Assembly (NCBI RefSeq): GCF_902788255.1
Contig: NZ_CADAJR010000010.1
Span: 1 to 58,770, forward strand
Length of the DNA: 58,770 bases
Source: an uncultured Methanobrevibacter sp.
GTDB lineage: Archaea > Methanobacteriota > Methanobacteria > Methanobacteriales > Methanobacteriaceae
Direction: 5' to 3'
Part shown: piece by piece, positions 14,001 to 16,684 of the stretch
How positions within the stretch are numbered: the first letter of the stretch is position 1
How the letters are laid out: each line of letters starts with the position of its first letter
The notes under the pieces: model-generated
The model's database searches: none
What the model saw: only the letters and a program-made list of their open reading frames with translations
What the model was told of the DNA's origin: nothing
Translations under genes and position numbers: made by a program

Positions 14001-14507
14001 TTATCTTTTAACGTGATGGACGAAATGCGGAAGTTCATCAATTATTAAATTGAGAGCTGTTTTTACAGCATTTGGAGATCCGGGCATGGAAAATATAATT
14101 GTTTTTTTATATATTCCGGCGGTTGCTCTTGAAAGAAGGGCTGCAGAACCAATTTCCTCATAGGATTTGGCTCTGAAAAGTTCTCCAAATCCATCAATTC
14201 TTTTTTCAAAAAGTGATTCAACCGCTTCAACAGTGATGTCACGGGTATCAAGACCGGTTCCACCATTTGTTAATATAACATCAATGTCATCGTCAATCAT
14301 GTTTTCAATTGCATTGAACAAATCTTCTTTTTCATCAGGGATTAAAACCTTTGATTTTAATTCATATCTTGATTTAATTTCATCAGCAATATATTTTCCA
14401 GATAAATCTAGTTTTTCAGACTTTCTACTGTCACTTAAGGTGATTAAACCACAGGTTATGTCAGTAGATGACTCTTTTTGATGTTTTTTTGCAGTTTCAC
14501 TTTTCAT
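14001..14507 (-). CDS. moaB: MoaB/MogA-type molybdopterin biosynthesis protein
   Basis: Adenylylates molybdopterin during molybdenum/tungsten cofactor synthesis, needed by formylmethanofuran dehydrogenase. The 168 residues contain TCGLITLSDSR, the active-site NGGTGLDTRDITVEAVESLF and a C-terminal FSMPGSPNAVKTAL motif, all typical of the MoCF-binding fold. It is the last gene of a reverse-strand operon behind three winged-helix genes, only 2 nt after the nearest one. This suggests the regulators respond to a molybdate, tungstate or redox cue, but that link is inferred from position alone. Confidence 0.88.
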   Translation of the reverse strand: MKSETAKKHQKESSTDITCGLITLSDSRKSEKLDLSGKYIADEIKSRYELKSKVLIPDEKEDLFNAIENMIDDDIDVILTNGGTGLDTRDITVEAVESLFEKRIDGFGELFRAKSYEEIGSAALLSRATAGIYKKTIIFSMPGSPNAVKTALNLIIDELPHFVHHVKR

Positions 14508-14509
14508 GT

Positions 14510-14857
14510 TTATTCATTCCTTTCTGTGTTCATGATTTTGCACATTTCTTTAGTTATTTTATATTCTTTTAAAGCATTAAATAATTTTTGAGTTGGAAAT
14601 ATATAGGTGACATTTTCGAATCTTTCTGACTTGGTGTATTTATGGACTTCTAATAGATTGATGTGATATTGAACGGTTTTGTAATCAAGATTTAATGTTT
14701 TTGCAATCTGATTTTTGTTCAGAGGCTTTTGCAGTATTAAATCTATAATTCTAGATGTTGTTATTCCGCCACTTCTTCCCAATATAAGGCTTACAAGTTC
14801 CTTGTCTTGTATATTCCACAAATTCCAGTTTTCCAATGTTCCTTGAAATGTACTCAT
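14510..14857 (-). CDS. Winged-helix (ArsR-like) transcriptional regulator
   Basis: A 115-residue DNA-binding protein. The segment TSRIIDLILQKPLNKNQIAK, then TLNLDYKTVQYHINLLEVHK is a winged helix-turn-helix of the ArsR/MarR-like archaeal type, with the wing in TKSERFENVTYIFPT. No ligand domain or metal-binding cysteine pair is visible, so the signal is unknown. It sits 16 nt after the regulator at 14874-15665 and 2 nt before moaB. Confidence 0.78.
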   Translation of the reverse strand: MSTFQGTLENWNLWNIQDKELVSLILGRSGGITTSRIIDLILQKPLNKNQIAKTLNLDYKTVQYHINLLEVHKYTKSERFENVTYIFPTQKLFNALKEYKITKEMCKIMNTERNE

Positions 14858-14873: not shown

Positions 14874-15665
14874 TTAATAGTATTTTTTTAAATTTTTTGC
14901 CCATTTCAGGGCGTTTTGATCTTTTGCAATCAAAATTTGAGAATCGTCGTAATGACCATCCTTAAAAAACAGCGTCAGTGACATAAATTCTTCACTTTGT
15001 GTCAAAAAGATTTTCAGTCTTCCTTTCACGCTGTGAATTTTGACCTTTTTGTTGTTTAGCAGTTCCCTGTTAAACAGTTCATTTTCAGCCATTGAATTTA
15101 TGATTTCTTCACTAACTATTAACTCCAAACTTTTCAGTTTATCGCCATTTAAAAGTTTTATCAGATGCTTAAAATGGTTTTCTGAATAGATAGGGAGTAT
15201 AATCTTTAATCTTTTCGCTTTTGAAATTAATCGGATATATGTATTGAATGCGTTTGACAAATCGCTGGTTGTTGAAGTGATGTATTCGGCATTTTTCAAA
15301 AGATAAATGTCTTTTAATATCTCATCGGGGATTCCGGATAAGTCATGGCTGTTCCAGAATAGCTTGCCACGGTTAATTGAATACCAGTTTTCAATCAATT
15401 TGACCATATTTGTGGTTAACAGAAATCCGTTTGATGTAAGTTCATAATATTTCTGGACCTTTTTTATCAGATTGATTGTTTCAAGTTCTTTCAGCCCATG
15501 CAATATTGTTGCTGAAGGTTTTTTCAGTTCTGTTCGCAACTCATCAAGGTTTTTTGGGTTTTCATACATTGCCAGAAGCAGTTTTGATCTCATGCCTGAA
15601 GTTAGGATGTACTTCACTCCGCCGAATTCTTTGGCTATGTCCTTTTTTGTTTCGACGCCAGTCAT
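14874..15665 (-). CDS. FilR1-domain (DUF1724) winged-helix regulator B
   Basis: A 263-residue methanogen-type regulator. An N-terminal winged helix (KYILTSGMRSKLLLAMYENP, then LDELRTELKKPSATILHGLKE) is followed by the middle domain found in FilR1, ending with the recurrent IFLTQSEEFMSLTLFFKDG and a closing ALKWAKNLKKYY. In FilR1 this domain precedes a role in controlling methanogenesis genes. It is a paralogue of the gene before it, overlaps that gene by 4 nt, and probably arose by tandem duplication. The signal and targets are unknown. Confidence 0.8.
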   Translation of the reverse strand: MTGVETKKDIAKEFGGVKYILTSGMRSKLLLAMYENPKNLDELRTELKKPSATILHGLKELETINLIKKVQKYYELTSNGFLLTTNMVKLIENWYSINRGKLFWNSHDLSGIPDEILKDIYLLKNAEYITSTTSDLSNAFNTYIRLISKAKRLKIILPIYSENHFKHLIKLLNGDKLKSLELIVSEEIINSMAENELFNRELLNNKKVKIHSVKGRLKIFLTQSEEFMSLTLFFKDGHYDDSQILIAKDQNALKWAKNLKKYY

Positions 15666-16453
15666 TCTTTCACCTGCTTTTTAACATGTTCAAACAATTC
15701 TTCAGCCCAGGTGTGGGATTTCAAATCATCTGAAATCAGGATCCTATTTTGATCAAAACTTCCGTCATTTTTAAACAGTCCCAAACTCATTGTTTCATCA
15801 CAGATTGACAGATACAGGTTCAGGTCTTTTTTAAATGAGTAGATTTTTAGCTTGCCATTTTTAATGGCTTTCTTTCTGACTTTCTCATTTATGCGAAATA
15901 CAAGTTCTTTAAATATGCTTTTTGGAAGAATCAGTTCCACAGTTCCTTCATTGCTTAAAATTTTTCCAATCAATTCAGGATATTCCGGGTGCAGGTAAGG
16001 GAATATTGCTTTGACATTTATAGAGTTTAACATATGCCTTTTGATGGTGTTGTGTGTTTTGAAAATGTCGACAGGTGTTGTCTCAACCAGTCTTGAATTT
16101 TTCAAATCGGTAATCCTTTTGATTGATGTGAGGCTTAACTGGTTTAGGTTGTGCTTGTACCAGAATGCCTCATACTCATTTACCAAATCAACACTCACCT
16201 TAAAGTCCATCAGTGTTTTGAAGTAAACTTCGGTCATTGGATTTACATGGTATTTGTTTTCAACCTTGGAAATGTAGTTGTTCTTCTCTAACTTGCCTAT
16301 ATTATTTGATATGGAACTATAAGCCATATTGGTTTTTTTAACAAGCCCACGCACGTTATTTGGTTCGTCATTCAGCTCACTTAGAATTTTCAATCTTATT
16401 TCGGATTTAGCAAGAAATTGTATATCATTGTTGATGTCATTGTTGATATTCAT
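15662..16453 (-). CDS. FilR1-domain (DUF1724) winged-helix regulator A
   Basis: First gene of the four-gene reverse operon, 263 residues, the same length as its downstream paralogue. The N-terminal winged helix is seen in IQFLAKSEIRLKILSELNDE and VRGLVKKTNMAYSSISNNIGKL. The C-terminal domain repeats the LYLSICDETMSLGLFKNDGSFD and HTWAEELFEHV pattern of the FilR1/DUF1724 family. A strong ribosome binding site (GGAGG) lies about 8 nt before ATG 16453. Its promoter region borders the 11-bp repeat array at 16555-16642, a good candidate for its own binding site. Confidence 0.8.
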   Translation of the reverse strand: MNINNDINNDIQFLAKSEIRLKILSELNDEPNNVRGLVKKTNMAYSSISNNIGKLEKNNYISKVENKYHVNPMTEVYFKTLMDFKVSVDLVNEYEAFWYKHNLNQLSLTSIKRITDLKNSRLVETTPVDIFKTHNTIKRHMLNSINVKAIFPYLHPEYPELIGKILSNEGTVELILPKSIFKELVFRINEKVRKKAIKNGKLKIYSFKKDLNLYLSICDETMSLGLFKNDGSFDQNRILISDDLKSHTWAEELFEHVKKQVKE

Positions 16454-16554
16454 TTTTAATCCTCCATATTATGCAAAGATTTATTAAAATCTTCACGAAT
16501 TGTTGTATAATTTAAGTTTGCTTAATTGAATTTAAATATATTTTCACAAAACCG

Positions 16555-16642
16555 TCCCAAATCTCTCCCATACCTATTCCAAAGGTTTCCCAAAGTTATC
16601 CCAAATCTTTCCCAAACTTATCCCAAATCTATCCCAAATGTT
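16555..16642. repeat. Eight tandem 11-bp repeats, consensus TCCCAAATCTA
   Basis: Units start at 16555, 16566, 16577, 16588, 16599, 16610, 16621 and 16632, every one exactly 11 bp after the last. Six of the eight begin TCCCAAA; unit 2 begins TCCCATA and unit 3 TTCCAAA. The last four bases vary. The C-rich strand stands out in AT-rich surroundings. The array lies between the divergent starts of regulator A (16453) and nob1 (16685), upstream of TATA-like sequence on both sides. An 11-bp period is close to one helical turn, so each unit would face the same side of DNA. Confidence 0.9.
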
Positions 16643-16684
16643 TTTGGTTAAGTTTAATAAATTTGTAAATCTAAATATTATAAC

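Follow-up and report, generated by a model that had tools for sequence, protein, structure and literature searches.

An uncultured Methanobrevibacter sp. carries a run of short repeats between a winged-helix regulator gene (regA) and nob1, and the locus raises two questions: which of the two genes the repeats serve, and what reads them. The window analyzed is the 58,770 nt stretch of contig NZ_CADAJR010000010.1. Read directly from the sequence, positions 16555–16642 hold eight 11-bp units in steps of exactly 11 bp, with the consensus TCCCAAANNTN. The units are, in order, TCCCAAATCTC, TCCCATACCTA, TTCCAAAGGTT, TCCCAAAGTTA, TCCCAAATCTT, TCCCAAACTTA, TCCCAAATCTA and TCCCAAATGTT. Unit position 10 is T in all eight, hence the T at this position of the consensus. 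The features of the locus are as follows.

16555–16642, minus strand: array of eight 11-bp units, TCCCAAANNTN on the plus and NANNTTTGGGA on the minus strand, pointing to the regA TATA element (eight tandem copies in all)
16544–16554, minus strand: degenerate ninth unit TCACAAAACCG, in register and adjoining the regA TATA element (1 mismatch in the two-unit pattern search)
16531–16537, minus strand: putative TATA element of the regA operon, TTTAAAT; the first unit begins 13 nt beyond it, a spacing kept genus-wide
16653–16660, plus strand: putative nob1 TATA element TTTAATAA, out of phase with the array
15662–16453, minus strand: regA, winged-helix regulator of the HVO_A0261/FilR1-like type, which opens the operon (PF08350, 1.6e-24)
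14874–15665, minus strand: regB, second FilR1-like regulator, whose recognition helix shows almost no variation in the genus
14510–14857, minus strand: hth, 115-aa winged-helix protein and favoured candidate binder, with D58 and K60 where the recognition helix begins
14001–14507, minus strand: mog/moaB-like molybdopterin-binding protein, which closes the operon

Register and conservation of the array

Tandem Repeats Finder reports periods of 11, 22 and 33 at positions 16555–16642. When the whole window is scanned by likelihood, the array scores 82 bits at period 11 and the second-best period-11 site 24, and no site at periods 9, 10, 12 or 13 exceeds about 30 bits. The eight exactly phased repeats described in the initial annotation are confirmed by all three approaches, and its gene calls (a FilR1_middle regulator, PF08350; PIN/Nob1; DUF2117; methanogenesis marker 2) agree with those made here. 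An exact 18-base two-unit pattern is found in the same genome at the array and at one related site on contig 14, and nowhere else; the reversed pattern, used as a control, has no match in that genome. Exact two-unit matches are present in five other genomes, every one before nob1/regA.

The comparison set is Methanobrevibacter in the broad sense, with 67 genomes searched for nob1 (present in 64) and 60 regA-upstream regions scored. A search of other genomes of the genus, as the initial annotation proposed, finds the 11-bp phased array upstream of regA in 56 of 60, where period 11 is preferred over periods 8–14. The arrays nearly always lie about 50–110 bp before the regA start in the 60 regions, and copy number ranges from 3 to 18 units between species; one congeneric genome, possibly of the main human gut methanogen, has five. 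Reading of the upstream regions reveals that the unit bases have drifted with the 11-bp period kept, giving TCCCAAA, TTCCAAA, TTCAAAA, TTCAATA, TCATAAA, ATGAAA, TTGAA and ACCAAA. Unit positions 1–4 are the ones that drift between lineages. No array is seen by eye upstream of the closest regA relatives in other genera or of other FilR1 paralogues (contig 19 of the same genome; other genera), and none was found with hth relatives in other genera.

Three genomes display unusual arrays. The region upstream of regA in G016 (L072) has four identical CTTAAACTTCC units within an otherwise TGAA-type array, possibly a recent local expansion or a motif switch. In G052 (L094, L075) two contigs end within a long TTTGAANNTTC array, one with more than 25 units. 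Long arrays such as these break short-read assemblies, so that copy numbers from metagenome-assembled genomes can be lower bounds. Contig 24 of G064 has a giant array of about 43 TTCCAAA/TCCCAAA units (positions 215658–216126; L125 2659–3130), in part with higher-order repeats, which ends with no obvious TATA element or target gene.

The promoter served and the unlinked sites

Genomes in which regA and nob1 have been separated show which promoter the array accompanies. In G005, where 17 kb lie between the two, and in G017, G023 and G036 the array is located at regA and is absent at nob1. Its phase to the regA TATA element is fixed in 41 of 54 genomes, and most of the exceptions are mis-picked TATA boxes. 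Relative to the nob1 TATA element, the phase is uniformly distributed; some arrays overlap the element, others lie up to 325 bp away, and in one case the gap is 1.1 kb. Since the array follows regA on separation and is phased to the regA TATA element only, it is assigned on positional grounds to regA, with nob1 merely a neighbour. The initial annotation had proposed a helix-phased operator in the service of both genes. This holds for regA, where the operator is kept in congeners; a control element of nob1 was rejected, as the array is missing at separated nob1 genes and neither its distance nor its phase to the nob1 TATA element is fixed.

The array is also found away from this locus. In the main search a three-unit in-register pattern has many matches in 27 of 29 genomes and the reversed control has 0; in two further searches for unlinked arrays the reversed control gives at most one match per genome. 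About 10 of 13 unlinked arrays, of 2–5 units before target genes, stand before genes of two families. One encodes a protein of about 51 aa that matches no known family (in the same genome with arrays at contig 12:20435 and contig 14:9663; also in G021, G026 twice, G043, G060 and G064), the other a DUF6932 protein (G020, G037, G045 and G056). In the TGAA lineage, arrays with the lineage's own motif precede a shared gene of no assigned family in G003 and G052. Weak matches on contig 13 of G005, inside a gene, and on contig 18 of G036 were judged to be chance.

The promoters of homologues found in the genus, 25 of the 51-aa family and 13 of DUF6932, were scored for three oriented units. The floor of p = 0.005 (200 shuffles) is reached by 13 of the 25 and by 12 of the 13; the sole DUF6932 exception is a member of the TGAA lineage. 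Passing promoters score 17–39 bits, compared with 8.5 bits for the 99th percentile of random windows. Wrong-strand three-unit scores are negative or near zero, and the signal is present only in the orientation that points to the TATA element. The proximal unit is 13–15 nt from the TATA element in all three gene families, and none of the three shows units on the downstream side of TATA. A motif that drifts by lineage and is common to unlinked sites points to a trans-acting binding protein. The array is thus very probably the operator of a small regulon read by such a protein, as judged from sequence.

Two explanations that dispense with a specific protein were considered. Phased A-tracts could curve the DNA or place archaeal histones: AAA occurs once per turn, and the period of 11 is kept as the outer bases drift. 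However, the non-A positions 2–4 are the most conserved distinguishing bases, they change by lineage and do so homogeneously at linked and unlinked sites, and the orientation toward TATA is fixed, which makes this explanation highly improbable. A neutral minisatellite arising by slippage would suit the variable copy number (3–18, and about 43 on contig 24 of G064) and the near-identical units in G016 and G052. In the window, however, 8 of 11 unit positions are kept while the spacer bases vary from unit to unit, which argues against a recent slippage product, and the motif recurs at unlinked promoters with its frame unchanged. There is hardly any likelihood that the array is of this kind. A specific protein that reads the units is the preferred explanation.

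Several features of the unlinked loci may be recorded here. On contig 12 of the same genome (L109 1001–2600) the array and a frameshifted 51-aa gene lie directly behind a phage-type large terminase gene, in a provirus. An intact copy of the 51-aa gene (L119 2603–2758) is beside genes that look phage-like and match no family. The DUF6932 leaders contain a perfect or near-perfect palindrome (CAGGCGCCTG, CAGACGTCTG, CAGGTACCTG) followed by TTAAATTTT, just upstream of the start (L222, L223, L225, L227, L228, L230, L231 and L233); the palindrome is possibly a second operator.

The candidate binding protein

The order regA-regB-hth-mog is kept in all 20 genomes first examined. RegA has both a FilR1_middle domain and a winged helix. 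The AlphaFold model of hth is a confident winged helix (pLDDT 89) with a recognition helix at residues 59–71 and a C-terminal helix at 96–114, so that residues 58 and 60 are placed at the tip of the recognition helix. Its fold neighbours are ArsR/MarR proteins and AspA (TMt 0.74), and its profile matches are 5duk, an ArsR protein, and AspA (E 4e-4). In G029 (L205 981–2072) regB and hth form a single 363-aa reading frame, either a real fusion or a stop lost by assembly error. In G066 (L061) regA is frameshifted right after the winged helix, which may be a sequencing error, and a four-unit array persists (TTCGAAATTCC, ATCGAATTTCC, ATGGAATTTCT, ATTGAAATTCT).

Comparison of protein alignment columns with the drifting unit bases singles out the hth helix tip. 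Residue 60 (K/N/S/H) is the best of 554 columns for unit position 2 (adjusted R2 0.66) and the fourth for position 4 (0.61), and residue 58 (D/N/S/Y) is the second for position 3 (0.79). For positions 3 and 4, similar scores come from other columns of the three proteins that hold many residue types, and for position 3 RegA residues 57 and 61, located where the RegA recognition helix ends, give 0.71–0.73. The hth tip in the genome of the window is D58-Y-K60-T. The tips and the base frequencies of the accompanying units are:

DYK, 24 genomes: C3 0.97, C4 0.83
DYN, 9 genomes: C3 0.93, C4 0.37, A4 0.50
SYN, 8 genomes: G3 0.79, A4 0.98
YYN, 1 genome: G3, A4
NYS, 2 genomes: C3 0.92, A4 0.92
NYK, 4 genomes: mixed

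The sister genomes G034 and G047 differ in the same manner, with N versus K in hth and C4 at 0.0 versus 0.79. Three genomes are misfits: G054, and G059 and G058, in which an NYK tip goes with C at position 3. Contacts of Asp with cytosine, Lys with guanine and Asn with adenine would fit the pairs. When the covariation is corrected for ancestry, only 5–6 independent changes remain and the sign test is not significant, binary independent-pair tests being of low power. With too few independent changes, the covariation is a strong lead and not proof.

Genome G049 provides a second line of evidence. Among about 41 congeners that are at least 90% complete it is the only one without hth (best remaining match 7.6e-4). 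It has no array, and it retains regA, regB and mog.

The initial annotation had named regulator A as a possible binder. In its favour, the array lies immediately before regA and moves with it, FilR1 of Methanosaeta is reported by ChIP and EMSA at its own promoter (PMC3991700), and RegA residues N50/S, K57 and I61/V also vary between the main lineages. Against this, the RegA recognition helix shows little variation and does not change in parallel with the motif; G024 and G034 share the helix tip ITYSSVSSN, yet have TTCC and TTCA motifs; G048 pairs a C-type RegA helix with a TGAA motif; regA is retained in the array-less G049; and the array is kept beside the frameshifted, though perhaps missequenced, regA of G066. 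RegA is therefore possible as the binder but not favoured, as its helix explains the drift less well, and we regard this assignment as unlikely. Binding by RegB, or by a complex of RegA, RegB and hth that draws its specificity from hth, would agree with the three genes sharing one conserved operon and with the single regB-hth frame of G029. The recognition helix of RegB (KPSATILHGLKELE) is near constant in every lineage, however, while the motif is not, and regB too is retained in G049; this assignment is very unlikely.

The 115-aa hth protein, rather than the FilR1-like RegA, is probably the array binder as far as sequence comparison can tell, because motif drift tracks its residues 58 and 60 and because G049 is without both hth and the array. 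It counts against hth that related winged-helix proteins which carry a dimer helix at the C terminus usually target palindromes and not direct repeats, that the joint absence is seen in a single genome, and that hth relatives in other genera have no array.

Proposed mode of action and related systems

In the proposed mechanism a small sequence-specific protein would occupy an 11-bp unit at each helical turn, always on the same DNA face. Binding would proceed head-to-tail, outward from the TATA-proximal unit that abuts the BRE/TATA of the controlled promoter, on the model of CarH (PMC9304148) and BldC (PMC5859096). Encoded by regA-regB-hth-mog, hth would bind the operator of its own operon, and since the favoured binder is encoded within it, the operon would be autoregulated. 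The unlinked 51-aa gene, the DUF6932 gene and a few others would be controlled by the same operator. Copy number would set cooperativity or output, and RegA and RegB may supply the sensed signal.

The bound protein would activate through contact with TFB/TBP. Archaeal activators have sites upstream of the BRE (PMC5512572, PMC4158304), and the array has this layout, upstream of BRE/TATA at a fixed distance. As the units lie solely on the upstream side of BRE/TATA and keep a fixed helical phase to it, activation is slightly favoured over repression. The same operator might instead repress, the proximal unit overlapping or crowding the BRE and blocking TFB in negative autoregulation. That unit ends beside the BRE, and the majority of archaeal regulators are repressors (PMC4158304). 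The lack of units downstream of TATA in three gene families speaks against it, and a steric block needs neither a fixed phase nor a long upstream extension; repression is a possibility of lesser probability. The whole reading of a polar multi-site operator that is bound by hth, self-regulating and activating is considered rather likely.

The literature search found no description of a phased 11-bp methanogen array. The array itself is new, but its kind is already known from the operators of CarH, BldC and EarA. CarH/CarA operators are also tandem 11-bp direct repeats, three to five on one DNA face, with the unit nnnnTnnACAn (PMC9304148), which is unrelated to TCCCAAANNTN. They are bacterial and placed over the -35 element, whereas the methanogen array is upstream of an archaeal BRE/TATA and has up to 18 units. 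The CarH protein has a MerR-type winged helix and a B12 domain, whereas the operon proteins are FilR1-like or ArsR/AspA-like and have no B12 domain. BldC of Streptomyces binds direct repeats in variable number as a cooperative head-to-tail filament (PMC5859096). It resembles the present case in being a small, nearly winged-helix-only protein, with sites that combine an AT-rich part and a C-G pair recognized through a side chain; it differs as a MerR-like protein of 68 residues on 9-bp repeats, compared with an ArsR-like hth of 115 aa on 11-bp units. No homology to BldC was found in this analysis.

At the Methanococcus fla promoter EarA uses four 6-bp sites needed for activation (PMC5512572). 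These are likewise several short sites directly upstream of the BRE in a methanogen, but the regulator is different, the sites are of 6 bp, and the available text describes no 11-bp phasing. AspA of pNOB8 (PMC5120986; PDB 4rs8, 5k1y), which spreads along DNA starting at its own promoter, is a solved archaeal relative of hth by both profile and fold. It nucleates at a 23-bp palindrome and acts with ParB/ParA partners in segregation, whereas the hth array consists of direct repeats; no ParAB genes are near hth, its neighbours being regA, regB and mog. FilR1 of Methanosaeta harundinacea has its domain in common with RegA and RegB and is reported to bind its own promoter, but it belongs to a two-component system, and no repeat array is reported in the available text (PMC3991700).

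Tentatively, the genus may possess an 11-bp head-to-tail operator lattice whose reader is a small winged-helix protein under autoregulation; two helix-tip residues of this protein and the operator bases would have co-changed repeatedly, copy number would serve as gain control and the regulon would reach proviral DNA. If this is true, the lineages amount to a natural set of protein-operator pairs that match each other (D/K, D/N, S/N, Y/N and N/S with CC, CA, GA and others). The series of operators and helix tips would be a natural experiment on the joint change of specificity in a regulator and the numerous sites it reads. The control of genes in gut methanogens has received little study, and here there is a clear operator with a small, defined regulon and a single short protein as the candidate binder.
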